Both the position numbers and the translations under genes were made by a program. Of a stretch of DNA of 64,000 nt, positions 14,335 to 64,000 are shown piece by piece (position 1 is the first letter of the stretch; every line of letters begins with the position of its first letter). The stretch comes from Nitrosococcus wardiae (GTDB lineage Bacteria > Pseudomonadota > Gammaproteobacteria > Nitrosococcales > Nitrosococcaceae): contig NZ_CP038033.1 of NCBI RefSeq assembly GCF_004421105.1, positions 2,933,659 to 2,997,658 on the forward strand, in the 5' to 3' direction. The notes beneath the pieces are model-generated. The model was not told the DNA's origin. It made no database searches and worked only from the letters and a program-made list of their open reading frames with translations.

Positions 14335-14410
14335 TGGTGCCGGGAACAGGAGTCGAACCTGCGACCTTGGCATTACGAATGCCCTGCTCTACCAACTGAG
14401 CTATCCCGGC
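14335..14410 (-). tRNA. tRNA-Thr (anticodon CGU)
   Basis: The minus strand folds as a complete tRNA: acceptor GCCGGGA/TCCCGGC, D-arm GCTC...GAGC, anticodon loop TTCGTAA with anticodon CGT, T-arm GCAGG-TTCGACT-CCTGT, and an encoded CCA. Base pair 27:43 is a G:A mismatch. A short GC stretch followed by a run of eight T lies downstream on the same strand (about 14290-14330) and may terminate it. Confidence 0.95.
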
Positions 14411-29595: not shown

Positions 29596-30159
29596 TCAAT
29601 GAGGGCTAGAGGTTCGTTTTGAGATGTATTTTTCAAGTTTACTGGAAGCTTCTGCATAGTTGGCGGCAGTCTCAGCGTCTAAGGCATATTCCGGAAGAAA
29701 TTTAACTTTATCCTTTACCTCTTTAAGATCCGTAAAGAGCTTGAGCTGCTCTTCATCAATCACTCCAGCATCCTTCAAAGCGATACCAATATCAAGATCT
29801 GGTCCCTTACCTCCGGTAGCCGCTGATGCTGATGTCTTTAAACTTTCCCAAGAATCGATCAATGCAGTCTTGGGCCTTGTTCGTGCCTTCCGCAGCAGGC
29901 TACTCACCGCTTCCTCGACTTCCTCTTTTGAAAGTGTTGGCAGACTTTGGGCCTTTTTTCTAGCATCTATCGCTTTTTCCCTCACTTCTACTGCATCAAA
30001 GTCCAGTTGCTTATCTCCCCACTTTGCGTGCAGTGCTCGCCTTACCAGCGAGGCTATTAATTCGGAGAGTTCCAGCTTAAAGAGAATTACAAACACAATG
30101 AAGGCGAGCGGCCATGCAATTGTCTTTACAATCTCCGCAACAAATTCTAACCAACCCAT
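29596..30159 (-). CDS. Hypothetical protein, one membrane helix
   Basis: 187 residues; not recognised. A hydrophobic segment (about 8-30: IVKTIAWPLAFIVFVILFKL) is followed by a basic stretch and a long, charged helical region containing KAQSLPTLSKEEVEEAVSSL, then a region rich in Asp, Leu and Lys. It looks like a protein anchored by its N-terminus with a cytoplasmic helical tail. It is transcribed alone. Confidence 0.7.
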   Translation of the reverse strand: MGWLEFVAEIVKTIAWPLAFIVFVILFKLELSELIASLVRRALHAKWGDKQLDFDAVEVREKAIDARKKAQSLPTLSKEEVEEAVSSLLRKARTRPKTALIDSWESLKTSASAATGGKGPDLDIGIALKDAGVIDEEQLKLFTDLKEVKDKVKFLPEYALDAETAANYAEASSKLEKYISKRTSSPH

Positions 30160-30532
30160 AAAGATATCTCGTTAAAGCGAGTTTGAAGATTCATCCAAAA
30201 TGGCATCTAAAACAAGAATTCTTTGACCAGCCTTTAATCTATGATTAAATTCCTACTATTTCTATAATGTATGTTGATACAGGCAGAAAATAGCTCAGGG
30301 GCCAGGTCAACCCCATATGCGCAAGTACTTGTTTTGCTATAAATTAATATTAAAATCATAACATTATGACTATACGACAGTTTAGATACAAGGTTTTCAC
30401 GTTGCTTGCTCTATTATTAACCAAGCATTTGAATAATCTTGAAAATACTGTGGCTAGAAAAGATTCTTCGCCCTTTTAGCCCTCTCCCCTATTCCCATCC
30501 CCGAAAATCAGCTTAAAATAATTAAAACCCCA
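30160..30532. other. AT-rich intergenic region
   Basis: 373 bp between divergent genes; no frame or RNA is recognised. It should carry the promoters of the hypothetical gene and of the GGDEF-EAL gene. Confidence 0.4.
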
Positions 30533-33379
30533 ATGATAAATAAAAAAGTGGAGGTTTCGCATCGCTATGATGTGCTCCTAGAGATGATGGCGCATGCCGC
30601 CGAGCAACTTTTATATTCTCCCCATTGGGAAAAAAACATTCACAATGTTCTAGAGCGACTAGGTAAAACCGTAGGAGCCTGCCGAACCTTTGTTTTCGAA
30701 AACCACCGCGACAAAGAGGGTCAACTCTTAACTAGTCAACGTTATGAATGGGCAGCCCCCGGAGTCCAACCCCAAATCAATAACCCCGAGCTGCAAAATT
30801 TCTCCTATGAGGCAGGCGGATTCCAGCGTTGGATAACATTACTTAGCAAAGACCACGTGATCCATGGTCGAAGTCGTGATTTTCCTTCTCCTGAAAGCGC
30901 AATTCTACTGCGCCATGGCATCCAATCAACTGCTGTAGTCCCCATTTTCGTACGGGACGGCTGGTGGGGTTTTATTGGCTTTGATAATACCCGTCATGAG
31001 CGGCTATTTTCCCTAGCAGAGGAAAATGCTCTTAAAACTTTAGCAAGTATCTTTGGTGCCGCCATTAGTTGGGAGAGTATCACCCGAGATCAGGAAAAAA
31101 ATCGACACCAACTAGAACGTCTCCTCTCCAAGGAACGCTCCCACCATCAACTTTTTGATGCGATTGGTCGGATTCAATCGCTTTTTATCCAGGATGCAAA
31201 CCCTTCCGTGCTATTTGGCAATGTCCTGCAAGAGGCGCTTGCGCTTTCAGAAAGCCAGCTCGGCTTTCTCAGCGAAGTTCGTTATAAAAAAACCGGTACC
31301 TCCTACCTTAGAACCCTGGCTATCGGCAACACCACTTGCGATAATGGCCAATGTTATCTCCAGGCGACGTGTTCACTAAGCGGTGCAGAACTTGCCAAGC
31401 TAAAGACACTTTTTTGTGATGCCATTACCAATGGTAAAGCTGTCATTGCTAATAATGTCCCTAACGATCCTCAAATAAGTGGAGTACTGAGTAGTGATTC
31501 TCAAATAAAACGCTTTCTGGGTCTTCCCTTTTATCATCATGGCTCTCTGCTTGGCATCGTCGGGGTCGCTAATCGTCATAAACCCTATGATAAGCGATTA
31601 ATTGAATATCTCGATCCTCTGCTTTCCACCTGTGGAAGTATTCTTGATGCTTACCATAACGACCAGCGCCGAAGAGATGCAGAAAGCCGTCTCCGGCTTA
31701 CCGCTAAGGTGTTTGAAAGCACTATTGAAGGAGTCATTATTACCGACGCCAGAGCCTACATTCTAGATGTCAATAAAGCCTTTACTCACATCACTGGTGT
31801 TGTAAGGCGGGAAATCATTGGCCAACACCTCAGTGTCCTCCGTACCAAACAAGAAGAGCCGATCTCTTTTCAAAAAATATGGCGTTCCATTAAAAGCACT
31901 GGTCAATGGCAAGGCGAGCTATGGAGTCAACGTCAAAATGGAGAGACTTTCCCTGCTTGGATGACAGTCAGTGCGGTCAGAAATTCAAAGGAAGAAATTA
32001 CCCATTATGTTGCCGTTTTTTCCGATATCACAATACGCAAACAGACCGAACAACGACTCTATTATCTAGCTCATCATGATACTTTAACAGGATTACCTAA
32101 CCGCACCTTATTTCTCGATCGTCTTAAGCATGCCATTAGTCAGGCCCATCGTCGTAACCATCGGGTTGCCGTTTTATTTATCGATCTTGATCGTTTTAAA
32201 TTTATTAACGACACCCTGGGTCATCGCATTGGTGATATTTTGTTAAAACAAGTCGCCAAACGCATGCAGGCGAATATTCGTACTGAAGATACCATTGCCA
32301 GATTAGGAGGCGATGAATTTACGGTGATTATCGAAAGCTTTACTGATACTTCGGTAATCCCTCTGATTGCTCGAAAAATTATTAATGCATGCGAGAAACC
32401 GTTCAACATCAATGGTAAGGAGTTGTTTGTCTCTGCCAGTATTGGGATTAGCCTTTATCCAGAGGATGGTTATGATGCGGGTATGCTCCTACAGCATGCC
32501 GATGCGGCCATGTATCGTGCCAAAGAAAAAGGTAAAAATAGCTATCAATTTTTTACTCCTGAAATCAATGCTGCTGCCGCGGAGCATCTTGCCCTTGAGA
32601 ACCGTCTCCGAAAGGCAATTGCCCAAGAGGAATTTCAGCTGTATTATCAACCCATTATGGATATGGAAAGTGGCGCTATTGTCTCAGTGGAAGCCTTAAT
32701 CCGATGGATTAATCCTGAATTAGGATTAATCCATCCCGATAAATTCATTCCTTTAGCGGAGGAAACTGGACTGATTATCCCTATCGGAGAATGGGTATTA
32801 CAAACAGCCTGCGCCCAAGCTAAAATATGGAATCAAGAAAATACATATCCTTTACGGATAGCCATTAATCTATCCGCTCGCCAATTCCAACAAATTGACT
32901 TTTTAGAAAGAATGCTTGATATCCTTAAAAAAACGGAGCTTCTCCCCAATCGCCTGGAACTAGAGCTGACGGAAAGCATGATTATGGACAATATGGATGC
33001 TAGCCTGGAAACCCTCAATGCATTAAAAAAAATGGGCTGCCAAATATCATTGGATGATTTTGGAACAGGGTATTCTTCCCTGGCCTATCTGAAACGCTTT
33101 CCCATAGACACTGTTAAAATTGATCATTCCTTTGTTCGGGATATTAGCATTGATCCAGATGATGCGGCCATCACCACAGCAGTGACCACTATGGCGCACA
33201 GTTTGAGGCGTAAGGTAGTGGCAGAAGGTGTAGAAACACAGGAGCAGTTAGAGTTTTTGGATAATATCGGCGTTAATGGGGTACAAGGTTATTTTATCAG
33301 TTACCCAGCCCCTGCTGAGAACCTTACCCAGCTGTTACAGGAAAAACACTATATCAATCATGACCTCCTACGACTTTGA
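30533..33379 (+). CDS. GAF-GAF-PAS-GGDEF-EAL cyclic-di-GMP protein
   Basis: A 948-residue cytosolic signalling protein. Two GAF-like domains (about 15-175 and 195-375), a PAS/PAC (about 383-500), a GGDEF domain (about 510-665) with intact GGDEF at 592-596 and the inhibitory RxxD site (RTED) five residues before it, and an EAL domain (about 685-935) with EAL at 720-722, LDDFGTGYSSLAYLKRFPID and VAEGVET. Both active sites look complete, so it may make and break c-di-GMP, switched by the sensory domains. Its last 20 bp overlap the gor start. Confidence 0.94.
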   Translation: MINKKVEVSHRYDVLLEMMAHAAEQLLYSPHWEKNIHNVLERLGKTVGACRTFVFENHRDKEGQLLTSQRYEWAAPGVQPQINNPELQNFSYEAGGFQRWITLLSKDHVIHGRSRDFPSPESAILLRHGIQSTAVVPIFVRDGWWGFIGFDNTRHERLFSLAEENALKTLASIFGAAISWESITRDQEKNRHQLERLLSKERSHHQLFDAIGRIQSLFIQDANPSVLFGNVLQEALALSESQLGFLSEVRYKKTGTSYLRTLAIGNTTCDNGQCYLQATCSLSGAELAKLKTLFCDAITNGKAVIANNVPNDPQISGVLSSDSQIKRFLGLPFYHHGSLLGIVGVANRHKPYDKRLIEYLDPLLSTCGSILDAYHNDQRRRDAESRLRLTAKVFESTIEGVIITDARAYILDVNKAFTHITGVVRREIIGQHLSVLRTKQEEPISFQKIWRSIKSTGQWQGELWSQRQNGETFPAWMTVSAVRNSKEEITHYVAVFSDITIRKQTEQRLYYLAHHDTLTGLPNRTLFLDRLKHAISQAHRRNHRVAVLFIDLDRFKFINDTLGHRIGDILLKQVAKRMQANIRTEDTIARLGGDEFTVIIESFTDTSVIPLIARKIINACEKPFNINGKELFVSASIGISLYPEDGYDAGMLLQHADAAMYRAKEKGKNSYQFFTPEINAAAAEHLALENRLRKAIAQEEFQLYYQPIMDMESGAIVSVEALIRWINPELGLIHPDKFIPLAEETGLIIPIGEWVLQTACAQAKIWNQENTYPLRIAINLSARQFQQIDFLERMLDILKKTELLPNRLELELTESMIMDNMDASLETLNALKKMGCQISLDDFGTGYSSLAYLKRFPIDTVKIDHSFVRDISIDPDDAAITTAVTTMAHSLRRKVVAEGVETQEQLEFLDNIGVNGVQGYFISYPAPAENLTQLLQEKHYINHDLLRL

Positions 33380-45823: not shown

Positions 45824-46627
45824 ATGAACGCACAATCAACTGTCCAGCTTCACAGTGGAAATGCCATGCCGATTCTTGGTTTGGGTACTTGGCAATTAAC
45901 AATTGATACTGCAGACACCGTCGCCTACGCCTTAGAGCTCGGATACCGGATGATTGACACCTCCAGCGATTACGGTACGCAGCCAGGCATTGGTGAAGCA
46001 ATAAAAAGAAGCCACATCAGCCGCGATAGCCTCTATATCGTAACGAAAGTAGAGGAAACCGACGATGCTTACCAAGCCACCAAAGAATATTTGAATGAAA
46101 TGGATTTGGAATATGCCGATCTGATGCTTATTCATCGTCCACCCGCCAGAGGCGCTGGTGAGGAGCTATGGGACGGTTTAATTCGCGCTAAAAAAGAGGG
46201 CCTTACAAAGGATATTGGGGTAAGCAACTACTCGGCTGAACTCAGTCAGAAACTGATCGATGCCAGTAACGAAGTCCCTACTGTGAACCAAATTGAATGG
46301 AGTCCGTTCGGCCATAGTAGAGATTTCAAGAATTTTTGCATTAGGAATAACATCATTATTCAAGCATACAGCCCCCTGACCCGTGGTAACAGGCTTGATA
46401 ATAAGACGCTTAATCAAATAGCCAGCAAGTACCATAAAACACCCGCGCAAATGATGCTTCGCTGGAATATCCAGCTCGGTACAGTTCCTTTACCGAAAGC
46501 TAATCAGAAAAGACATTTAGAAGAAAATCTTGGCTTTTTTGATTTCGAAATAAGCACTCAAGACATGGAAATTCTCAGCAATCTGAACGAAGAATATTCA
46601 TCACTAGGATCTTTGCCTTATATCTAA
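45824..46627 (+). CDS. Aldo/keto reductase
   Basis: A 267-residue NADPH-dependent reductase of the AKR superfamily ((beta/alpha)8). The catalytic tetrad is visible: Asp and Tyr in MIDTSSDYGTQPGIGEAI, Lys in YIVTKVEETDD, His in DLMLIHRPPARG. KDIGVSNYSAELSQKLID and the C-terminal PLPKANQKRHLEENLGFFDF (cofactor binding) are standard. Substrate unknown. GGAGAGG lies before the ATG. Confidence 0.92.
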   Translation: MNAQSTVQLHSGNAMPILGLGTWQLTIDTADTVAYALELGYRMIDTSSDYGTQPGIGEAIKRSHISRDSLYIVTKVEETDDAYQATKEYLNEMDLEYADLMLIHRPPARGAGEELWDGLIRAKKEGLTKDIGVSNYSAELSQKLIDASNEVPTVNQIEWSPFGHSRDFKNFCIRNNIIIQAYSPLTRGNRLDNKTLNQIASKYHKTPAQMMLRWNIQLGTVPLPKANQKRHLEENLGFFDFEISTQDMEILSNLNEEYSSLGSLPYI

Positions 46628-46750
46628 TGGCAACATTCCAGCTTTGCCAACTATTTTCCCAGACTGTTTCAGAAAAATGCCAGCAAGCAAAGATAATTTC
46701 GATAGGTTGCGGCAATATATAATAGGCTAAGTAATTAAATAATAAAGATC

Positions 46751-47020
46751 CTATTCTTGCTTTCGTCGAGACATTAATTCCATTAAGGCGTCGATTAGAT
46801 CTGCTCTGTTCATCTTCTCATGATTAGGAATACTGAGGCTTTGTGCAAGAGCATGCAATTCCTCCTCTGTCCACCGCTCATACTCCGGCAAATCATATCC
46901 TCTTCCACCCGGCATTTGCTGTGAGGGCTATTCTCGATTCTTTTCCTGCTCACTGCTTAGTTTTACATACTCTTCATGCTTTTTGAGCAGCGGATCAGGC
47001 ATTTTAGGGGTCTTAGCCAT
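46751..47020 (-). pseudogene. Small Rho-N-like protein gene with internal stop
   Basis: From ATG 47020, 8 nt after an AGGAG site, the frame reads MAKTPKMPDPLLKKHEEYVK... for 30 codons and meets TAG at 46928-46930. The same frame then stays open for another 58 codons, through MPGGRGYDLPEYERWTEEEL and LAQSLSIPNHEKMNRADLID, to TAG at 46751-46753. The second part resembles the small helical Rho N-terminal/SAP-like module. The frame agreement suggests one 89-codon gene cut by a nonsense mutation; two separate genes, the second starting at MPGGRGYD without a ribosome site, is the alternative. Confidence 0.6.
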
Positions 47021-56570: not shown

Positions 56571-56811
56571 TGTCTCAATCTGTTTCCCCATCTTACTCTT
56601 TAGTGTGAGGGTTACTTCGTCACCTACCCAAAAAACTATAGGATTCAGCAACACTTGCCTGAGTTCGTTATAATCCTTATTTCTATCAGATTATTTGATG
56701 TAATCCTGCTCAGGACTTACAAGGAAGTTTAAAGATTAGAAAGGAAGGGGTTACAAAGAGGGGCTCGCTTGAGAAGATTTGGAAAAAGCCTCTCGGTAAA
56801 CTAATGATTTT
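56571..56811. other. Region before the tRNA-Gly fragment
   Basis: About 240 bp of backbone-like sequence with no gene. It ends at the 3' tip of the partial tRNA-Gly, where a normal tRNA gene would have its downstream flank. Confidence 0.4.
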
Positions 56812-56858
56812 TGGAGCGGGTGATGGGAATCGAACCCACGTCATCAGCTTGGGAAGCT
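56812..56858 (-). other. 3' part of tRNA-Gly(CCC): probable attachment site
   Basis: On the minus strand this reads AGCTTCCCAAGCTGATGACG, then GTGGGTTCGATTCCCATCAC, then CCGCTCCA: the anticodon loop (CCC at 56851-56853), variable region, complete T-arm, acceptor 3' strand and CCA of a bacterial tRNA-Gly. The 5' half (acceptor 5' strand, D-arm, anticodon stem start) is absent; beyond 56858 the sequence is AT-rich and does not fold. This is the pattern of an att site left where an element has integrated into the 3' half of a tRNA gene. Confidence 0.8.
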
Positions 56859-57333
56859 CATTTACCCCTGATTCTCACCAGTATAATCAATGAATTACAG
56901 TAATTCAAGAGGGGATTTTTGAGGCTTCAGTGTGACAGAATTGTGACAAGAAAATGTGCTTCATGTGATTGATTAATCTATTTTTTTCTGCCTGATTGGT
57001 AATTTTTATACCCCCCTGGGGGGCAAAATCTGAATGAAAATGATCAGGGGGGGAGCTTGCGTATACCGATTTATCATATTTTTCAGAATTTTCATTTTCT
57101 CTGAAAATGCATGTATCTCTCGATTGCGAATTTCGATTTTTCCCAAAAATGTATGCACCTTATGGCTTCAGCTTTAAGCAGCGATAGCTGCGCTGCAAGT
57201 AGCTATGCTACATACGCCTACGGCGTTAAATCGCAACTACGTTGCTCAAGAGCAGAAGAAATATGCCGATAAAGTATTGGGATATATAAAAATTTTGAGA
57301 TAGAAATATTATCTCTAGGTGAGATCTAGCTCA
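56859..57333. other. Non-coding left end of the element
   Basis: 475 bp without a gene. It holds the palindrome CCCCCCTGGGGGG (about 57011-57023), the inverted pair TTTTCAGA/TCTGAAAA near 57080-57110, and the cluster of small hairpins at 57173-57245. The region could contain an excision/integration control site; nothing further is recognised. Confidence 0.45.
57173..57245 (+). repeat. Paired-hairpin element cluster (copy 1)
   Basis: Three hairpins in a row: GCAGC-GATA-GCTGC (57178-57191); the two-hairpin unit GTAGC-TAT-GCTAC, spacer ATA, CGCC-TAC-GGCG, tail TTAAA (57199-57230); and GCAAC-TAC-GTTGC (57233-57245). The middle unit has the same architecture and spacer as copy 4 at 60563. Confidence 0.75.
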
Positions 57334-58146
57334 ATGAGTCGAGGATATATTTATATACTAACCAATTCTTCTTATGAGAAAAACTTACTTAAGATTGGTA
57401 GAACTTCTCGTTCGCCAGAAGCAAGGGCTAAAGAAATATATAGAAATGCTACTGGTATTCCTACCCCATTTAAAGTTTCTTTCAAGAGAAAAGTTTTAAA
57501 TTGCAAAGAAGCTGAAAGACTTATACACAAGCGTTTAAACAGCTATAGATCTCATAATTCCAGGGAGTTTTTTAAATTACCTATAAATGAAGCCATAAAT
57601 ATCATAAATCATGTTTGTGAAGAGATAGATCGCTTAAATACTCCAAATCAAGAAAGCGAGAAGTATAAACAAAATCTAATCACGCAGTTTTCATTTTCAG
57701 TACCCCAACGAATTCCTGGCTATTTCTATCTTTATGACAATTTTGGTAAATTGAAATATGGACTTACAGTTAACAATCCTTTTGGGGATAGAAATTTAAA
57801 CATATTGATTTGTTATAAAGTTTATGATTGCGAGGCTGTATCAGCAGTCCTAAATAAGAAAAATCGTAATATCGAAAAACAAGGAGGCAGTTGGATACTA
57901 TCTTTTAGAGAAATTATTTCTGTGTCTGGATCAGACTATAGTATTCTAAAAGAGCAAGAACCTGATATTCCTGCTCAAAACCCAAACCTTGAAAGGAAAG
58001 AACCTAAGCCTAGCTGGTCTCAACGGGTAATGTCTTATATAAAGTGGGTACTAATTATGGCGCTAGCAAAAGCTATTATATTTGGCGCTAGCAAAATTTC
58101 TATGACAAGTAATACATATGGCCAGGGCAGCTACGGTGTTTGGTAA
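57334..58146 (+). CDS. T5orf172/GIY-YIG-like protein with C-terminal helix
   Basis: A 270-residue protein. The N-terminal 90 residues match the T5orf172 (MUG113-like) domain, a relative of GIY-YIG nucleases found in phages and plasmids: GYIYILTNSSYEKNLLKIGR, then RSPEARAKEIYRNATGIPTP, CKEAERLIHKRLNSYR and SREFFKLP. The middle is unrecognised; a hydrophobic helix (about 240-260, YIKWVLIMALAKAIIFGA) near the end suggests membrane association, which is unusual for this family. ATG 57334 (MSRGYIY) is the likely start. Codon use is AT-rich, unlike the backbone. Confidence 0.78.
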   Translation: MSRGYIYILTNSSYEKNLLKIGRTSRSPEARAKEIYRNATGIPTPFKVSFKRKVLNCKEAERLIHKRLNSYRSHNSREFFKLPINEAINIINHVCEEIDRLNTPNQESEKYKQNLITQFSFSVPQRIPGYFYLYDNFGKLKYGLTVNNPFGDRNLNILICYKVYDCEAVSAVLNKKNRNIEKQGGSWILSFREIISVSGSDYSILKEQEPDIPAQNPNLERKEPKPSWSQRVMSYIKWVLIMALAKAIIFGASKISMTSNTYGQGSYGVW

Positions 58147-58244
58147 ATGAAAAAAACCTTACATGAAAAAAATTCTAGGACCACGAAAAATTGTTGACCT
58201 ACACCAAGTACTTCCTGGCAATAGATTTCCTTCTCCAGTCCATA

Positions 58245-58907
58245 TTATCTTTTCTTCATAGTCCATTTGTAAAACAAAAAATATCCTGTTGTTATGACTA
58301 TGGGAGGAAATACTGTAACCTTTATTGCTTTCATTAGCTCTGTATCATTAAGGCTAGAACCAAAAGGCTCAAATACAAAAATAAATGCTATTGCTAAAAG
58401 TATCCAGAAAACACTGCCTGCTATAACAAACCTTTCAGCCAGCCCTAGATTAGATATCCGGTTCATGAAGACTTCTTTATGACGACGAACAAAGCGCATA
58501 GATAATACTGCAAGAAATATAAGCAGAAATATTATTGGATCAGTAAGATTTCCTACAAATTCCGCCGTATCCCCTATCACTCCTCCTATTGGCTTTTCAC
58601 ATGGTAACAAACTCTTGGGACATTCTAGCATTTGTGCTTGATAGGCTTCAGGGTGTGCTTTTATCAGTGCTTTTTTATTGTCTAGTCTATTAGTTAAGTT
58701 AGCTAAAGGAGCAGTATCAATATTATCTATTATTTTATTCGTAAGATTATTCTGGAAGCCTTTATGGTATCTATATTGAATAATGTCTACGGTAGTAGGA
58801 GGTGGCGTATTTTCTGTTATTACAGGTTCTACGCCTTGTGGATTAGCCTTTTCGACTAACTCCTCCATTCCAATAGGTGGACCTAATCCTTCAAATAAGT
58901 TTGCCAT
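58245..58907 (-). CDS. Hypothetical membrane protein of the element
   Basis: 220 residues, not recognised. The N-terminal 100 are hydrophilic with a Pro-rich stretch; CPKSLLPC contains two Cys. Three hydrophobic helices follow (about 117-137, 152-177, 192-212), with the basic loop RFVRRHKEVFMNR between the first two. It ends KWTMKKR. It converges with the T5orf172 gene, about 100 bp apart. Confidence 0.65.
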   Translation of the reverse strand: MANLFEGLGPPIGMEELVEKANPQGVEPVITENTPPPTTVDIIQYRYHKGFQNNLTNKIIDNIDTAPLANLTNRLDNKKALIKAHPEAYQAQMLECPKSLLPCEKPIGGVIGDTAEFVGNLTDPIIFLLIFLAVLSMRFVRRHKEVFMNRISNLGLAERFVIAGSVFWILLAIAFIFVFEPFGSSLNDTELMKAIKVTVFPPIVITTGYFLFYKWTMKKR

Positions 58908-59000
58908 AATTTATCACGCCAAGATTTATGATTAAAATTGTTTTTTTTACCGTACTAAGTCCATTATCGTTAGGCAATGTAGAATCTTTAATTTGCCTTA

Positions 59001-59028
59001 AGCTACGCTTAACGTAGCGCTGCTACTG
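59001..59028. repeat. Degenerate hairpin element (copy 2)
   Basis: Overlapping hairpins GCTACG-CTTAA-CGTAGC and GTAGC-GCT-GCTAC with no clear second unit. It lies immediately before the KilA-N frame. Confidence 0.5.
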
Positions 59029-59037
59029 CATACGAAG

Positions 59038-59268
59038 TTGGGATTACTTAATGGTAAGGCTTTCGTGTTCCGCAAGGACGGGTACTTTAATATGACTAAG
59101 GCTGCTAAGGCATTTGGGAAAGAGGCAAAGGAATGGACACGACTACCTAAAACTACTGGGTATATCAAGGAGTTAGAAAAGGTGGGATTTTCACGCCTTT
59201 TAGATATTACCAAAGGTAGGCAAGGAGGGACTTGGGCACACCCTAAACTAGCTGTATTCTCAAAGTAG
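59038..59268 (+). pseudogene. KilA-N domain fragment, cut by a hairpin element
   Basis: The frame reads LNGKAFVFRKDGYFNMTKAA, KAFGKEAKEWTRLPKTTGYI and DITKGRQGGTWAHPKLAV: the core of the KilA-N DNA-binding domain of phages and large DNA viruses. Normally HPKLA is followed by FARWLSP-like sequence, but here the frame runs into paired-hairpin copy 3 and stops within it. Sequence resembling the continuation (VARWLE) lies after the element in another frame. The 5' end is also bounded by copy 2, and the only start is TTG without ribosome site. I read it as an interrupted, inactive gene. Confidence 0.7.
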
Positions 59269-59292
59269 CTTTGCTACGTTGCCATTTCATGG
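59265..59292 (+). repeat. Paired-hairpin element (copy 3)
   Basis: GTAGC-TTT-GCTAC, spacer GTT, then CCAT-TTC-ATGG. It begins at the point where the KilA-N homology breaks off. Confidence 0.7.
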
Positions 59293-59480
59293 AGTTGCTC
59301 GCTGGCTAGAGCTAACGAGTATATTCAGGCACTTGCTGAAATTTTAAATCTTAATAAGGGTGTAACGATTCGTTACGTCTAGATCCCAAAACTAATATGC
59401 TCCAAGAGAGGGACTTAGATAATCACTCGGATTAGAGGTATTTAAAATCTTAATACGGGAAAATTCCGGGATAAGAAAAG

Positions 59481-59588
59481 GAGGGAAAATTCCACCTTCT
59501 AGAAATAACCAAAGGTAAGAATGGAAGGGTCACATTTGAAATGGCACCCTTTGCTCCAGTTGGAGGAATACAGCACAGATCCGCGTAG
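59481..59588 (+). pseudogene. Second, weaker KilA-N-like remnant
   Basis: The frame EGKFHLLEITKGKNGRVTFE resembles the segment F-x-x-LLDITKGRQGG of the fragment 250 bp upstream over about a dozen residues, then diverges. There is no start codon in a useful place. A decayed tandem copy is the likely explanation; support is modest. Confidence 0.35.
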
Positions 59589-59895
59589 TTAAATCTCAAA
59601 GGTGGCAATTTGCCATATAAGGAAATACCTTCGCTATTCATTAGCGCCTTTGGTGCTATACGTGAGTTCCTATCCCTTCTGTATTGGTACTATAATAACC
59701 ATACAATTATCATGGCTATATAGCACCAATAATACATGCTCATGCTTGTGTCGTATTCTTATGTATGAGTATTCCCATACATTAATAATGGGTATTAGAG
59801 GCTTTGTATGGCTCTCTAAGCAACGCTACGTATATAGGTAATGGTTAACTACTGTTTACCCCATAAAATAGCAAAAATCAATTATAAGGCACCTA
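59589..59895. other. Gap without recognised gene
   Basis: An open frame at 59602-59841 is Tyr/Cys/Ile-rich, lacks a ribosome site and resembles nothing I know; I do not count it. The region is AT-rich. Confidence 0.4.
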
Positions 59896-59930
59896 AAAAG
59901 CCCGTAGGGCAACGCAACATAGTTGCTTTA
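59896..59930 (-). repeat. Paired-hairpin element (inverted copy), terminator-like
   Basis: On the minus strand: TAAA, GCAAC-TAT-GTTGC, spacer GTT, GCCC-TAC-GGGC, then TTTTTAGG. It lies 44 bp beyond the stop of the winged-helix gene on the same strand, and the second hairpin with its T-run has the form of a Rho-independent terminator. Confidence 0.75.
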
Positions 59931-59973
59931 GGGCTCATGAGAGATTTTACTCCTTTAGCTCTCTAGGCAAAAA

Positions 59974-60303
59974 TTATAATAATATCTTCAATAACTTGGT
60001 TCTTAATGCTATACCTTTCCATGTCAGTTTAATAGTCTTTTGTCTCCTTCCTATTGGATTGTCAAATAATTCTACCAAGCCCAGTTCAACCTGACTGGAT
60101 ATATCCCTGCTGACATTAGCCTCTGTAACACCCACCAAGTCTGCTAAATCCGTTTGATATAGTTCCTCATGTAAAGCCACATACAAAAAACACAGCATTG
60201 CATGTGGTGACATTTCTGCATGGTGTTCCCTGAGCAGATCAATGAAATTAATAGCTTTTTGTAAAGGGAACTTGATTCCTTTGTGCAAAGGATTCCTATT
60301 CAT
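59974..60303 (-). CDS. Winged-helix (MarR-like) regulator
   Basis: A 109-residue DNA-binding protein. AMLCFLYVALHEELYQTDLA, DLVGVTEANVSRDISSQVEL and GLVELFDNPIGRRQKTIKLT form a helix-turn-helix plus wing of the MarR type. A perfect palindrome overlaps its likely promoter (60370-60388), suggesting autoregulation. It may be the element's main repressor (inference). No ribosome site is evident before the ATG. Confidence 0.8.
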   Translation of the reverse strand: MNRNPLHKGIKFPLQKAINFIDLLREHHAEMSPHAMLCFLYVALHEELYQTDLADLVGVTEANVSRDISSQVELGLVELFDNPIGRRQKTIKLTWKGIALRTKLLKILL

Positions 60304-60369
60304 TGGGTTTGATTGTAAAGCATGTCATACCGCTCTCCCTCTGCTGTCAATAATCTTCCATATTATACC

Positions 60370-60388
60370 CTTGAGTATAATACTCAAG
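60370..60388 (-). promoter_or_regulatory. Operator-like palindrome in promoter of regulator gene
   Basis: CTTGAGTAT-A-ATACTCAAG is a perfect 19-bp palindrome 67 bp upstream of the regulator start. On the minus strand TATAAT (60362-60367) lies just downstream of it, so the palindrome occupies the -35/spacer region of a probable promoter. Palindromes of this size are what MarR-type dimers bind. Confidence 0.6.
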
Positions 60389-60562
60389 TAAAAAAACTCT
60401 CAATTGTCTATAGTGGAATCTACTTATTGATTTGTTAGTTAGTTGTTTAAGGTTTCTGTATTCCCAATTCGTCAATTACTTATGCAATCCTATTCTCTGC
60501 TTAAAGCACTTCGTGCGTCTTCAACATTTTTTATTATCGTTAGAGGAGTGAATATCTTTAGC

Positions 60563-60594
60563 GTAGCAAAGCTACATACGCCGTAGGCGTTAAA
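60563..60594 (+). repeat. Paired-hairpin element (copy 4)
   Basis: GTAGC-AAA-GCTAC, spacer ATA, CGCC-GTA-GGCG, tail TTAAA. It shares the ATA spacer and CGCC stem with the middle unit of copy 1 but differs in both loops. Confidence 0.75.
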
Positions 60595-60620
60595 GAGTGA
60601 ACCTTCAGGCAAGATTTGAG

Positions 60621-60665
60621 CAAATCGCTAACAAATCGCTAATGTGATTAAATGCGATTAAGCAC
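60621..60665. repeat. Iteron-like block shared in inverse orientation with 63425
   Basis: Two AAATCGCTAA repeats, then AATGTGATTAAATGC (60641-60655) and GATTAAGC. The reverse complement GCATTTAATCACATT occurs exactly at 63425-63439, followed in both places after 2-3 differing bases by GATTTGTT. The two blocks flank the polymerase and nuclease genes as inverted repeats. Confidence 0.6.
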
Positions 60666-60925
60666 AAAAATATCGTATCAAAAATATAAGCTATTGATTT
60701 ATTGGGATTAAATCTTTAAAAACGTGGGGAGTAATGAGAGAGAAGATACATATTGTATATATACCCTCCCCATAAGAGGGAGGATTATGAAATCATGTAT
60801 ATATCAATCCAATATATCTAGTAATAATATTCAATCTTATGAACAATTGTTATATCTGTTTTTTTTATGACCCAGCTTATAGACTGAATATCAAATCGCT
60901 CTAGCGATTTAGTTGTATATATCCG

Positions 60926-62431
60926 CTATGACCCTCTCTTACCTGGTTTATAGGCTATTTGCTGCTCAGTATCTTCTTCACTCCACTTAGTGTGTATCTC
61001 TGGTTTCCATTTCCAATCCTCTTGTGATTCTATCTGCTCGATTAGCATATTCCTTCTAGCTGCTGCTTCTGGATTCTCATTTAAATCAATTCTGCTTATA
61101 CTACTTGCTCTTACTTGATAATCACCTTTATCAATAAAGGTATCCTCTTTCATTAGTTGTATGCTCCTTTTAATTTGTGCTTCAATTGTTGGATATAGTT
61201 CATTAAATATAATCTCCATGCATTTCTGTAGCCTAGCTTCACTTCCTGATTTAACGATAAAACTGTCATGGACTGGTAGAGTTGGGGAATCGTAATGACC
61301 ATACATGTACAGCATTACCTTCTCTGCAATGACACTGTCCCAATACTGTAGCTTTATTCCAATTCCTGTATGAAAATATCTTTTAATTGCTTCATGCTTC
61401 TGGAATATCTTTTCTAGTAATATTGCATAATCTATATCTGGATAATCTTTCCTAATAGCGCCCTTGGCTGATTGTAAGCTTTCAGCATTCAGCAAAGTAT
61501 TGGTAATCTTCTTGATTATATCCCTGGGTGCTTCTGGTATTCCTATATCATAAGAATCTTTTGGTGGCTCTAATCCTTCAATGCCATACAGCATTCTTAA
61601 GTGCATACCACCATAATCTAGCTCTACTGTCTTACTATCATTAATGGTAATGAACTTCCTGTACTCTCTTGGAATTTCTTGCCACCAACCATGATAGAAT
61701 CTCCCTCCTTCTTCAAAAGACCCATTATTGAATACTCTCCTTAATCTCTTTCTGCTGAAATCTAAAGTACCCCTATCTGGATCTTTTCTGAACCTCTTTA
61801 CTAATTCTTTAAGTTCACTATCTGAAATATCCAAGTCTATTAAACTTCTCTCTAACCGTTGATTAATTGCCTCAAGCTGTATTCTCATACGCATGGTGTT
61901 ATCATTATCTTGGTAATCAATCAAGTTTCCTTCACTGTCTTTAAGTAAAATCACCTCTTCTGTGTTCGTTCTCTTAGTCATGTATTGCCGTATGTTATAC
62001 CTATCCTTGATTAGATTTATCAGTTTCTTTTTAGCTCTCATTCTGGACTGAAATCCAATTCCTGTTCTTCTATCATTAAATCCTTTTTTATGCTCTATAT
62101 AACCACTATCCGCAAGACTATCTATCACTTGGATTAATGCTCTGTATCCAATATGAAGCTTGTTATACCTGCTATCTACTTGATAATCATGGTGATCTCT
62201 GGAATACCCTATCCATAATTCAGGATCACTTAGCCATGCTACATACAAATCCAGAATAACTACCTTCAGGTGTTTCTTCTGCTTATCTGTTACTTTCTTT
62301 ATCGGATTCGTTGCTACAAGCTCTCTTCTGATTGCTTCTACTGCTTTATTTACCTCTGGATAATCACTCCACCTATGTACGTCAAATGGCCTTGAATACT
62401 TGGCTTCTTTGTTTTCTTGTGCTCTGGCCAT
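60926..62431 (-). CDS. Short family-A-like DNA polymerase (putative)
   Basis: 501 residues. Three motifs fall in the order and style of family A polymerases. Motif A: TVELDYGGMHLRMLYG (compare DYSQIELR). Motif B: RDIIKKITNTLLNA (compare RRxxKxxNFGxxYG), about 50 residues later. Motif C: PTLPVHDSFIV (compare xVHDEhxx), about 80 residues after that. The 230 residues before motif A are basic and helical with no exonuclease motifs, so this would be a minimal polymerase without proofreading domain. AAGGAATAAATTT precedes the ATG. It is probably the element's replication enzyme (inference). A non-polymerase relative is possible because the motifs are divergent. Confidence 0.6.
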   Translation of the reverse strand: MARAQENKEAKYSRPFDVHRWSDYPEVNKAVEAIRRELVATNPIKKVTDKQKKHLKVVILDLYVAWLSDPELWIGYSRDHHDYQVDSRYNKLHIGYRALIQVIDSLADSGYIEHKKGFNDRRTGIGFQSRMRAKKKLINLIKDRYNIRQYMTKRTNTEEVILLKDSEGNLIDYQDNDNTMRMRIQLEAINQRLERSLIDLDISDSELKELVKRFRKDPDRGTLDFSRKRLRRVFNNGSFEEGGRFYHGWWQEIPREYRKFITINDSKTVELDYGGMHLRMLYGIEGLEPPKDSYDIGIPEAPRDIIKKITNTLLNAESLQSAKGAIRKDYPDIDYAILLEKIFQKHEAIKRYFHTGIGIKLQYWDSVIAEKVMLYMYGHYDSPTLPVHDSFIVKSGSEARLQKCMEIIFNELYPTIEAQIKRSIQLMKEDTFIDKGDYQVRASSISRIDLNENPEAAARRNMLIEQIESQEDWKWKPEIHTKWSEEDTEQQIAYKPGKRGS

Positions 62432-62443
62432 AAATTTATTCCT

Positions 62444-62472
62444 TAAAGCGCGTAGCGCGTTGCCTATAGGGC
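62444..62472 (+). repeat. Paired-hairpin element (copy 5) at polymerase ribosome site
   Basis: GCGC-GTA-GCGC, spacer GTT, then GCC...GGC. The flanking CCTTAAA supplies, on the minus strand, the TTAAGGA that acts as ribosome site of the polymerase-like gene starting at 62431. Confidence 0.65.
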
Positions 62473-62542
62473 TCTTTCTTTATAATACTCATATATCAGT
62501 CTCCTATGATTTTATTAGCAAATCACGTAAGCGATTAGGTGT

Positions 62543-62645
62543 TTTTGTCTCCTTGGTTGATTGTTTAAAAGAAATAGGTGCCAGGATTAACTGGAGACAA
62601 AAGCAGCCCTTTCACTCATACTGATCAGTATGAGCTAGGCACCTA
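62543..62645. other. Interleaved inverted repeats (possible origin or structured RNA)
   Basis: Three perfect inverted repeats: A, TTTTGTCTCC (62543-62552) with GGAGACAAAA (62593-62602); B, TAGGTGCC (62575-62582) with GGCACCTA (62638-62645); C, the 20-bp palindrome CTCATACTGATCAGTATGAG (62615-62634), nested inside B. The left arm of B lies in the loop of A and its right arm outside, so A and B cross like a pseudoknot. It lies in the gap between the nuclease-like and polymerase-like genes. Confidence 0.55.
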
Positions 62646-62662
62646 AATTGTTACTGTTGAAT

Positions 62663-62738
62663 AAGTTGCCCTTTTGGGCTTAATGGTGTAGCTGTGCTTC
62701 TTTCATGAGCTACGTCAAGTAGCGTTGCTACTCATGAA
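62663..62738. repeat. Partial hairpin elements (copies 6a and 6b)
   Basis: GTT then GCCC-TTTT-GGGC then TTAA (62665-62682) is the second half of the paired-hairpin unit. TTCATGAG (62702-62709) and CTCATGAA (62731-62738) enclose GTAGC-GTT-GCTAC, the first half. The latter forms the last codons of the nuclease-like gene (MSSNAT). Confidence 0.55.
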
Positions 62739-63275
62739 CTCGATAATATCTGTAATATCACTAGCCGGAATTTGCAGGCAATAGGTATATCCCCAACCAT
62801 TCCATGATCTAGAACTTTTGTATTCGCCTTGTGCTTCATTAACTGTAAGATACCACCAGAACTGCCTTAGCTCTTGCCAATTCCAATAGTACGTAATTCC
62901 TGTAATTTCTTTATGATATGCAAATATATCCGTCTGTTTGCTATCGTCTGCTATCCAACCTGGAGTTATCTTTCCATTCTCCGCTATCTGTTTGTATTCT
63001 ATATGTACAATATCGTCTTCATACTCTGTATTTAAATGCTCCTTATGTTCTATTCGGTAACTTTTCCCCAATTTGGGGGAATATACAAGCATATCTATTC
63101 CTTGGTCATTTCCTGTAGCTTCTCTGCTATCACCAAGCCTTATCAAATTTTTATCATTAAAATACTCCTTGTGTCGTTCCAACCACACACGATCAATCCC
63201 CTCGCGGTTTGAATGTGCTAGATCATTATCAAAATTTCGTACATAGACTTGCCTCCTTGTTTGGCTTTGGTCCAT
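62715..63275 (-). CDS. PD-(D/E)XK-like nuclease candidate
   Basis: 186 residues, no firm family. GNDQGIDMLVYSPKLGKSYR followed by IEHKEHL gives an Asp and, about 14 residues on, a Glu-x-Lys in the spacing of PD-(D/E)XK nucleases (ID...EHK). PGWIADDSKQTDIFAYH is a phrase common in phage and restriction nucleases of that fold. The C-terminal third is Trp/Tyr-rich. It lies upstream of the polymerase-like gene on the same strand. The last codons come from a hairpin element. Confidence 0.5.
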   Translation of the reverse strand: MDQSQTRRQVYVRNFDNDLAHSNREGIDRVWLERHKEYFNDKNLIRLGDSREATGNDQGIDMLVYSPKLGKSYRIEHKEHLNTEYEDDIVHIEYKQIAENGKITPGWIADDSKQTDIFAYHKEITGITYYWNWQELRQFWWYLTVNEAQGEYKSSRSWNGWGYTYCLQIPASDITDIIEFMSSNAT

Positions 63276-63330
63276 TTTTATATTCCATTATAAAGCTCCT
63301 TAGCCTCTTGGCCCTTTATCTTCCCTTACA

Positions 63331-63358
63331 GTAGTCTCGCTACGTTGCCCTTCGGGCT
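63331..63358 (+). repeat. Paired-hairpin element (copy 7)
   Basis: GTAGT-CTC-GCTAC (one G:T pair), spacer GTT, GCCC-TTC-GGGC. It lies 56 bp upstream of the nuclease-like gene. Confidence 0.75.
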
Positions 63359-63424
63359 TGATTGCCTCTTGGCGATTGGTCTATGTCTAATCTTTGTTTT
63401 AGAGCTTCACTGTTGCACTTTATT

Positions 63425-63480
63425 GCATTTAATCACATTGTGATTTGTTTAATCGCATTTTTAGCGCACTTAATCGCACA
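63425..63480. repeat. Iteron-like TTAATCGCA block
   Basis: Contains GCATTTAATCACATT (identical, inverted, to 60641-60655), GATTTGTT, and two TTAATCGCA repeats (63450-63458, 63470-63478). It could be a binding site for a replication or regulatory protein. Confidence 0.5.
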
Positions 63481-63491
63481 CTTCCTTTGCT

Positions 63492-63773
63492 TTATCTCAA
63501 TCCATACTGTTTCAGCAACTTCTTTACTCTTCCCTTCTTTATATTCCTTCTAATCTCTAAGCTGTATAGCTCTGCTATCTTCTTGTAATCCTGGGGATAT
63601 TTCTCATATAATTCTGTCAGTATTTTCTTCTTTTTATCTTCTCTTTGTGCTACTTGCCTTAAAGCAGCTTCGCTGCGTTGCCTTTTCAGGCTTAAAGCTT
63701 TTTCTCCTTTCTGGTTAAAAGGATTGTAATCTGGTAATAGTCCTAATTCATACGCTCGTTCTCTCCAGTCCAT
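63492..63773 (-). CDS. Small protein carrying an in-frame hairpin element
   Basis: 93 residues from ATG 63773 (MDWRERAYELGLLPDY), which has GGAGG 8 nt or so upstream. Residues about 26-45 (ALSLKRQRSEAALRQ) are encoded by paired-hairpin copy 8, which is inserted without breaking the frame. The rest is basic and helical; the end VKKLLKQYGL matches the end of the next gene (LGELLKKYGL), so the two are probably paralogues. No family is recognised. Confidence 0.65.
   Translation of the reverse strand: MDWRERAYELGLLPDYNPFNQKGEKALSLKRQRSEAALRQVAQREDKKKKILTELYEKYPQDYKKIAELYSLEIRRNIKKGRVKKLLKQYGLR
63661..63697 (+). repeat. Paired-hairpin element (copy 8), inside a gene
   Basis: GCAGC-TTC-GCTGC, spacer GTT, GCCT-TTTC-AGGC, tail TTAAAG. 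It lies wholly inside the reading frame of the small protein gene and is read through on the minus strand as KRQRSEAAL. Confidence 0.8.
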
Positions 63774-63797
63774 ATAGATACACCTCCTGTTATCCAA

Positions 63798-64000
63798 TTA
63801 ACATAATCCATACTTTTTGAGTAATTCCCCTAGTTGTATTACTGATACCCTTTTCCCAGTTTCCTTACTGAATGCTCTAGCTACTTGGATAGGATTGAGG
63901 GATCTATCATTGATTAATTCCTCCAGTAGCTTCTTCTGTTTTCTCATTAAAGCAGCTTCGTTGCGTTGCGCGTAGCGCCTTCTTGCTATATCTGCTGCTA
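63798..64000 (-). CDS. Small protein with in-frame hairpin element (N-terminus outside)
   Basis: The minus-strand frame enters from the right edge as AADIARRRYAQRNEAALMRK and ends SVIQLGELLKKYGLC before TAA at 63798-63800. Copy 9 of the paired-hairpin element encodes YAQRNEAAL, in the same frame as copy 8 in the neighbouring gene. The C-terminal region (ARAFSKETGKRVSVIQLGEL) looks like a small helical DNA-binding module. The next gene starts 24 bp downstream. Confidence 0.65.
   Translation of the reverse strand, partial: AADIARRRYAQRNEAALMRKQKKLLEELINDRSLNPIQVARAFSKETGKRVSVIQLGELLKKYGLC
63948..63981 (+). repeat. Paired-hairpin element (copy 9), inside a gene
   Basis: GCAGC-TTC-GTTGC (one G:T pair), spacer GTT, GCGC-GTA-GCGC, then CTT. 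The first hairpin is nearly that of copy 8, the second is like the first hairpin of copy 5. Confidence 0.75.

Follow-up and report, generated by a model that had tools for sequence, protein, structure and literature searches.

Half a tRNA-Gly(CCC) gene at the far border of an integrative element encoding a putative TV-Pol-type polymerase in Nitrosococcus wardiae

Why does the 3' half of a glycine tRNA gene stand without its 5' half exactly where the Nitrosococcus wardiae chromosome turns AT-rich? We addressed this question in a stretch of 64,000 nucleotides (the window; G000:C1:2933659-2997658) of the genome, which is a single contig of 4,022,640 bp, and in locus L004, which holds both the element described here and an intact tRNA gene and whose positions plus 55000 give window positions. 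The initial annotation had read the fragment as one end of an integrated element that would extend rightwards to an intact tRNA-Gly(CCC) next to an integrase gene.

The tRNA repeat, the borders and the unoccupied sites

On the minus strand, positions 56811-56858 carry the CCC anticodon with a partial stem, the T arm, the 3' strand of the acceptor and TCCA, while ARAGORN called no tRNA there (its sole call in the window is a tRNA-Thr at 14335-14410), so that a half tRNA-Gly(CCC) lacking its 5' half is indeed present. A search of the 4.02-Mb genome with the 47-bp query returned two exact copies, 8,995 bp apart, and a third match with 3 mismatches inside a tRNA-Gly(TCC) elsewhere; a control pattern gave zero matches. 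The exact repeat measures 48 bp, being made of 47 tRNA bases and one base past the tRNA 3' end, and the fragment therefore ends at 56858: its initial placement at the border was correct, and the right end first given, 56860, was not. The following features define the borders:

56811-56858, minus strand: distal attachment site, a 48-bp copy of the 3' part of tRNA-Gly(CCC), recognised by the exact repeat and the unoccupied sites in G001-G003
56859-64000, no strand: in-window part of the integrative element, with the out-of-window remainder at 64025-65880 on the window scale
L004:10806-10853 (65806-65853 on the window scale, outside the window): the other repeat copy, in the intact tRNA-Gly(CCC)
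L004:10807-10880 (65807-65880 on the window scale, outside the window), minus strand: intact tRNA-Gly(CCC)

Both borders of the element, which is 8,995 bp long, thus carry a direct repeat from the tRNA 3' end, and the tRNA itself is intact. The predicted partner lies to the right, well within the roughly 100 kb in which a second copy was expected, and the integrase gene expected beside it was found 84 bp inside the element, on the same strand as the tRNA. The proposed change from backbone to AT-rich DNA is real as well, since the element has a G+C content of 37.1%, lower than that of both its flanks (45.9% over 1.8 kb on the left and 47.5% over 9.1 kb beyond the intact tRNA). Elsewhere in the window, the backbone shows G+C dips (about 0.42 to 0.45) at 30000-33000 and 46000-47000.

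We compared the corresponding site in three same-genus genomes (G001, G002 and G003), all of which have an intact tRNA-Gly(CCC) there and lack the element; in none of them does the intact gene stand together with the same island genes. In G001, the match to the left flank runs up to 3275689 and that to the right flank starts from 3275642, the 48-bp overlap being the tRNA 3' part, and the two flanks joined at the repeat align as a single match of 1,271 columns (83.7%) that is seamless through the junction. In G002 and G003, a single match spans the tRNA and the right flank, and the left flank resumes past the tRNA after about 155 and 67 unmatched bases, respectively (about 300 and 170 in the query); the left flank has diverged in these two genomes, yet such short unmatched stretches leave no room for the element. 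Moreover, the element interior had no BLASTN match in the six loci around the sites of G001-G003, nor did the 501-aa protein described below have a match in these genomes. Since the relatives show unoccupied, intact tRNA sites and no match to the element, we conclude that the island was gained by site-specific insertion. As judged from these alignments, which show insertion at the tRNA 3' part with the integrase gene at the tRNA-proximal end, the reading of the half tRNA as the footprint of an 8,995-bp element inserted site-specifically into tRNA-Gly(CCC) is supported.

Gene content, the 501-aa protein and the double hairpins

Inward from the tRNA, the ten ORFs of the element follow in the order integrase (322 aa), 87, 75, 101, 186, 501 and 109 aa, KilA-N fragment, 220 and 275 aa:

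L004:9755-10723 (outside the window), minus strand: 322-aa tyrosine integrase (PF00589, 7.6e-29), 84 bp from the tRNA and on its strand
Outside the window (region 64025-65880 on the window scale): 87-aa small ORF with a serine-recombinase-like HTH stretch
63798-64000 (whole in L004:8798-9025), minus strand: putative 75-aa small ORF, with a hairpin repeat read in frame
63492-63797, minus strand: putative 101-aa small ORF, with a hairpin repeat read in frame
62715-63275, minus strand: 186-aa protein with a GID...EHKEH stretch
60926-62431, minus strand: 501-aa family-A-type polymerase, a TV-Pol / divPolA2 relative by motifs and predicted fold (phrog_4756, 2.5e-60)
59974-60303, minus strand: 109-aa winged-helix (MarR-like) regulator candidate (phrog_9665, 2e-14)
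59038-59268, plus strand: 76-aa KilA-N domain ORF (PF04383, 3e-13; profile positions 8-83 of 107)
58245-58907, minus strand: 220-aa protein without informative family match
57319-58146, plus strand: 275-aa T5orf172 (GIY-YIG-type) protein (PF10544, 8e-21; PADLOC candidate-defence PDC-S57, 3.7e-28)

By eye, the GID...EHKEH stretch of the 186-aa protein presumably resembles PD-(D/E)XK nucleases, and the structure model of this protein (pLDDT 45) is too poor to judge that reading. The KilA-N ORF ends early in its domain and looks truncated; therefore, this copy of the element may be partly decayed. Among the ten ORFs we recognised no virion structural or packaging gene (PHROGs, E 0.1), no relaxase and no family B polymerase (Pfam), and Pfam likewise revealed neither a helicase nor AlpA in the element. 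A prophage remnant was rejected on the ground that none of the ten ORFs was recognised as a structural gene. A defence island was also rejected as the main identity, the T5orf172 protein being the sole strong candidate-defence match among the eight proteins scanned.

The largest gene of the element encodes the 501-aa protein. Searches against Pfam, NCBIfam and PDB sequences gave no informative match, and no solved relative was found in PDB with either the single protein or its profile; the PHROGs family that it matches, phrog_4756, is of unknown function. We aligned it first within 15 relatives and then within 67 sequences, and found R244, D272, K307 and D389 invariant in both alignments, H388 invariant (67/67) in the larger one only and R303 conserved there in 66 of 67 sequences. 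These residues are laid out as a beta-hairpin arginine (R244), motif A (D272), motif B (R303xxxK307) and motif C (H388-D389). In the AlphaFold model built from the 67 sequences (pLDDT 88.5, pTM 0.85), R244 is carried by a beta-hairpin strand at 242-246, a helix at 303-315 starts at R303, and the hairpin and palm are preceded by helices 177-195 and 204-216, which are at most candidates for a thumb. The best Foldseek matches of the model were PolA-type DNA polymerases, with E 4.4e-5 to the apicoplast polymerase and TM-scores to PolA entries that are low (0.27-0.35 by query length, among the top 15). VIA gave a Z of 12.5 for the best family-A match, at an rmsd of 4.0 over 245 residues.

The features of TV-Pols given by Iyer, Abhiman and Aravind in 2008 are palm aspartates, a beta-hairpin arginine before the palm, RxxxK in the fingers and a thumb of two antiparallel helices (excerpts of PMC2579912), and the first three of these four are found here. 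Based on these features and on context, with published TV-Pol sequences compared by description only, the motifs and the predicted fold support the assignment of the 501-aa protein as a TV-Pol, that is, a pared-down family-A polymerase. The modelled structure further indicates that the protein is homologous to the divPolA2 proteins of phages, as its BFVD structural match to Barba31A of Rheinheimera phage Barba (E 1.4e-19) agrees with tblastn matches in Rheinheimera phages. Host PolA was rejected as the source of the gene: the genome has a separate normal polA, and a profile comparison of the 501-aa family with host PolA as a single sequence returned nothing.

In addition, the element holds eight copies of a double hairpin, in which a first hairpin (5-bp stem, 3-base loop) is joined through GTT or ATA to a second one with a 4-bp stem:

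57199-57225, plus strand: copy 1
59000-59026, minus strand: copy 2
59265-59291, plus strand: copy 3, second stem shifted by one base
59900-59926, minus strand: copy 4
60563-60589, plus strand: copy 5
63331-63357, plus strand: copy 6
63664-63691, plus strand: copy 7, four-base loop in the second hairpin
63952-63978, plus strand: copy 8

A simple pattern of the first part of the repeat matched 7 times in 20 kb against 0.08 expected, and two of the copies are those read in frame inside the 101-aa and 75-aa ORFs. Standard pairs fill 90.3% of the pair cells (74.2% in shuffled alignments), helix 1 being paired at 100% and helix 2 at 78%. Pair cells changed on both sides number 12 (4.5 shuffled) and the covariation score is 0.484 (0.222 shuffled), values that none of 500 shuffles reached, with the structure chosen from the same eight copies, which favours it. 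Two weaker measures, 5 pairs with change on both sides and 9 further pair types, were reached by 30 and 181 of 500 shuffles, respectively. For long or strong hairpins in general (stems of at least 6), there was no clear excess, 6 being found against 2.3 in shuffles (maximum 6).

The covariance model built on the repeat recovered just these eight copies from the own genome at E <= 0.1 (150 of 213 candidates scored) and had no match at that threshold in the three relatives; over 43 of 212 loci, it added three weak matches, one of them a ninth copy directly upstream of the polymerase gene (L004:7440-7482; E 0.03) and the other two lying elsewhere. An origin of the hairpins in another host was rejected, as strict filters with at most 22 candidates scored per genome left a single marginal match (E 9.7e-4) when 273 further genomes of the class were searched. 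The same applies to a source in IMG/VR, where two contigs gave a single weak match each and their ORFs of at least 90 aa showed, by eye, nothing polymerase-like. The double hairpins may be priming or origin sites, sites of a regulator or a private palindromic repeat.

Relatives of the polymerase and the elements that carry it

By tblastn, the polymerase was matched in 252 of 50,697 phage records (115 of Rheinheimera, 113 of Vibrio, 14 of Aeromonas, 5 of Pseudoalteromonas and 5 of Shewanella), always below 60% identity and never over 80% of the query, and in 3 of 72,556 plasmid records; a first scan of viral contigs for close relatives with the single 501-aa protein gave nothing. The same polymerase core is present in ORF100 of ICP1 (L200:2520-4187), a conserved hypothetical protein of this cholera phage, to which a profile of six bacterial and element sequences aligns over 180 columns (E 4e-19). 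Of 287 stretches matched in the GTDB contig collection, 261 encode relatives; the best 80 of these, which were kept, are by their titles mostly from Alphaproteobacteria, and also from beta-, gamma- and deltaproteobacteria and from MAGs of other phyla. Since the gene is present in just 3 of 59 near genomes (E <= 0.001) and 4 of 369 genomes of the class (E <= 1e-10), the own genome being counted each time, it is scattered as mobile genes are.

A polymerase tree of 91 rows, made by a quick method, with 26 of its 88 inner branches weak and several branches long, places 16 large-phage rows (11 phage records and 5 IMG/VR contigs, one of 36 kb) on one side of a branch with an SH-aLRT of 93. Seven of the eight small contigs cluster with further viral contigs (90). 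The window element belongs to a group of 60 rows (98) made up of the bacterial rows and three viral contigs.

We then considered the surroundings of these genes, leaving L124 and L125 out of the neighbour counts and dropping L080, whose gene lies outside the ORF cluster. An integrase profile built from the neighbours matches 59 of the 102 loci in all, among them 52 of the 79 from GTDB and 1 of the 15 from viral contigs, many of the contigs being short; for scale, 16 Phage_integrase matches, 15 of them above the cut-off, occur in the 4.02 Mb of the own genome, the one genome counted, or about 0.08 per 21 kb. Direct repeats of at least 17 bp derived from tRNA 3' ends bracket the polymerase gene in 33 of 80 loci (79 from GTDB and the window element), and no such bracketing repeat was found in the other 47 with exact repeats sought over 10 kb per side, on contigs that are in part short. 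Only 1 of 36 tRNA repeat pairs fails to bracket the gene, and random gene placement in the same loci gives 15.1 bracketed loci against the 33 observed, a control that is approximate, as each locus has its gene at the centre. With the threshold lowered to 14 bp, an earlier pass over all 102 loci had yielded 37, with at least one false pair of unlike tRNAs (L041).

The delimited spans have a median of 9,043 bp (range 2.5-15.1 kb) and use tRNAs for Gly, Val, Leu, Lys, Met, Glu, Gln, Asn, Thr, Cys, Arg and Ser. An integrase lies within the span or 150 bp of it in 31 of the 33 delimited loci. It is found at most 500 bp from the tRNA 3' end in 19, in all 19 on the strand of the tRNA as in the window element; it is far from the tRNA in 10, and in 4 none was found on the tRNA 3' side. 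We read these sequences as a common anatomy with variants.

For the cargo, 193 ORFs of at least 100 aa were listed from 31 delimited loci, with integrase and polymerase set aside, and 117 of them, none from the window element, were selected for scanning. Among the 25 commonest families (PADLOC, Pfam) are R-M systems, Cas9, one Cas1 match, ABC-3C parts and eight resolvases, together with many further families without a link to defence. Named defence homologues are Cas9 in L055, a type IIG R-M system in L062, a type I R-M system in L094 and LmuB in L097, with weaker partial defence matches in L104 and L106; 4 of the 10 proteins had no match at E 1e-10. The Cas9 gene, at L055:11767-14940, is located inside a 12.2-kb TV-Pol element at a tRNA-Leu.

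The polymerase is also carried by five small IMG/VR contigs (L153, L159, L160, L163 and L164), two of which end in direct terminal repeats, of 127 bp in L153 (9,932 bp) and of 99 bp in L164 (13,249 bp). These two are small, complete-looking contigs and possibly represent capsid-forming satellites or very small phages. Families of major head protein, terminase, head protease and portal occur among the 47 of 76 listed ORFs pooled from the five contigs, as judged from the 25 listed of 63 families. A further IMG/VR contig (3300037296_000253; L180, 1-13069) consists of tandem units that hold a short integrase and the polymerase, with starts 4,659, 3,347 and 3,756 bp apart and a last copy 67% alike, and resembles a concatemer or a misassembly.

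Replication, movement and relation to known systems

Considering these results, we think it probable that a tRNA-Gly(CCC) integrative element inserts site-specifically, that its 501-aa TV-Pol copies the excised circle, and that it is moved by a helper, most likely a phage. The integrase, to judge from the place of its gene, would have recombined a circular form with the tRNA 3' part; the incoming copy of this part would have restored the tRNA, and the displaced 48 bp would have become the far border. The same enzyme may later excise the circle. By analogy with CCPol of SCCmec, from which we infer a replication role, TV-Pol would prime and/or copy this circle, probably assisted by a small partner protein and by the helicase and fork proteins of the host or of a helper phage, and the small proteins of the element may regulate the switch. 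The element, which has no recognised gene for a capsid, packaging or a relaxase, would depend for its movement on some other element, most likely a phage.

A stronger form of this reading, quite possible and held by us tentatively, is that the element is a phage satellite, which would stay silent up to the entry of a helper phage and then be excised, copied by TV-Pol and packaged in helper particles. Its size and its set of genes for an integrase, regulators, a polymerase and a T5orf172 protein are like those of satellites, and PICMI likewise combines an integrase, a regulator and a replication protein (excerpts of PMC10803314). The defence homologues in L055, L062, L094 and L097, the five small contigs with head, portal and terminase families among their 47 pooled ORFs, and the occurrence of the polymerase family in phage records point in the same direction. 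However, Pfam recognised no AlpA in the window element, the contigs with head genes form a separate branch of the polymerase tree, and no helper is known.

It is rather doubtful that the element is instead plasmid-like, excising and replicating by its own polymerase and spreading by conjugation helpers or natural uptake rather than by phages. The absence of capsid, terminase and portal genes among the ten ORFs and the encoding of its own polymerase would fit such a life, but the Pfam scan of these ORFs found no relaxase.

The 501-aa protein might also be an RNA polymerase, or a repair polymerase, and not a replication enzyme, which we regard as unlikely. T7 RNA polymerase and yeast mitochondrial RNA polymerase share its fold (Z 10.8 and 10.7 in VIA), yet Foldseek puts DNA polymerases first. 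Going by spacing, two positions of the alignment correspond to the steric-gate Glu and motif-B Tyr of PolA: the first, five residues after the motif-A Asp, holds His in 58 of 67 sequences, and the second holds Asn in 64 of them. Because these positions are His and Asn, sugar selectivity is not readable from the sequence. A repair or RNA polymerase is left possible for divPolA2 (excerpts of PMC11348598), whereas the TV-Pol of SCCmec strongly prefers dNTPs over NTPs (excerpts of PMC7581432). Finally, a chance or duplicated tRNA pseudogene unlinked to the element is wholly improbable, since, although the tRNA-Gly(TCC) elsewhere in the genome matches with 3 mismatches, the exact 48-bp identity to the integrase-adjoining tRNA and the unoccupied sites in three relatives rule it out.

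We now return to the probable reading of a helper-moved element copied by its own TV-Pol and compare it with known systems. TV-Pols were described as polymerases of mobile elements, proposed to be replicative transposons, a subset being linked to D5 helicases (excerpts of PMC2579912). The likeness extends to a polymerase of 400-600 aa with the beta-hairpin arginine, two palm aspartates and RxxxK, and to published neighbourhoods with lambda-type integrase, gamma-delta resolvase and R-M operons and, in Brucella, a Bro-N/KilA-C protein (same excerpts). In contrast, the elements described here are site-specific at tRNA genes, and the window element, whose site is unoccupied in relatives, has no recognised helicase. 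Since three of the four published features are found, TV-Pol sequences being compared by description only, we file the window element with the known TV-Pol elements.

CCPol of SCCmec is the TV-Pol of an integrative element and acts as a DNA primase-polymerase with a partner, MP, the two making DNA primers de novo from dNTPs; MP is mostly beta and has no recognised homologues (excerpts of PMC7581432). By that description, the 109-aa winged-helix protein is not an MP homologue; we identified none in the window element, and the excerpts of PMC7581432 report that its authors found none either. SCCmec differs in its resolvase-family recombinase (excerpts of PMC2579912) and its helicase Cch2, as well as in MP, no homologue of which was recognised here. 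According to the same 2020 paper, no other TV-Pol had, to its authors' knowledge, been biochemically characterised (excerpts of PMC7581432).

The divPolA2 proteins of Caudoviricetes, such as barbaviruses that also have a regular PolB (Yutin et al. 2024), share a homologous core with the 501-aa protein, with a palm, no known thumb, no exonuclease and an N-terminal domain of its own, but were described in phages, whereas the present protein is encoded by a chromosomal element (excerpts of PMC11348598). A term search of the text available from PMC11348598 found TV-Pol mentioned only as background, and neither 'satellite' nor 'bacterial genomes'. PICMI is likewise a small integrative element with an integrase, a regulator and a replication gene; it differs by a putative primase, by integration adjoining fis and by a helper dependence that has been shown (excerpts of PMC10803314), while the window element, known from sequence, lies in tRNA-Gly(CCC) and not next to fis. 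Pipolins, too, are integrative elements encoding their own DNA polymerase, of family B (excerpts of PMC7385651), as opposed to the family-A fold and motifs found here. Overlap of the TV-Pol elements with VEIMEs and tycheposons is possible. The latter two integrate at tRNA genes. They are marine chromosomal islands that are transduced (as cited in excerpts of PMC10803314 and PMC11389934).

In the open-licence literature, no paper was found that joins a family A DNA polymerase with phage satellites or tRNA integrative elements, and open-licence papers gave no earlier account of the tRNA-site nature, the divPolA2/ORF100 link or the hairpins, the VEIME and tycheposon literature outside that scope being the likeliest earlier place. 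The tRNA-site integrative nature, the link of element polymerases to divPolA2 and ICP1 ORF100, and the private hairpins appear to be new here. As a speculation that we consider rather unlikely in its entirety, the TV-Pols of tRNA elements and the divPolA2 proteins of virulent phages, including ICP1 ORF100, could be one exchanged replication module. The small elements would then be widespread defence-carrying phage satellites with a primer-independent family-A polymerase, and the private covarying double hairpins would be sites of polymerase priming or regulation.

Altogether, the window element is a well-supported further TV-Pol mobile element, of a kind that is poorly studied but widespread, and offers a clean case, its attachment sites being defined, its polymerase gene intact and its insertion site empty in relatives. 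Our comparison points to many TV-Pol elements being about 9 kb long and integrated site-specifically at tRNA genes, some of them with homologues of anti-phage genes. Moreover, the unexplained divPolA2 of virulent phages and ORF100 of ICP1 are tied to these elements, whereby their function becomes testable.
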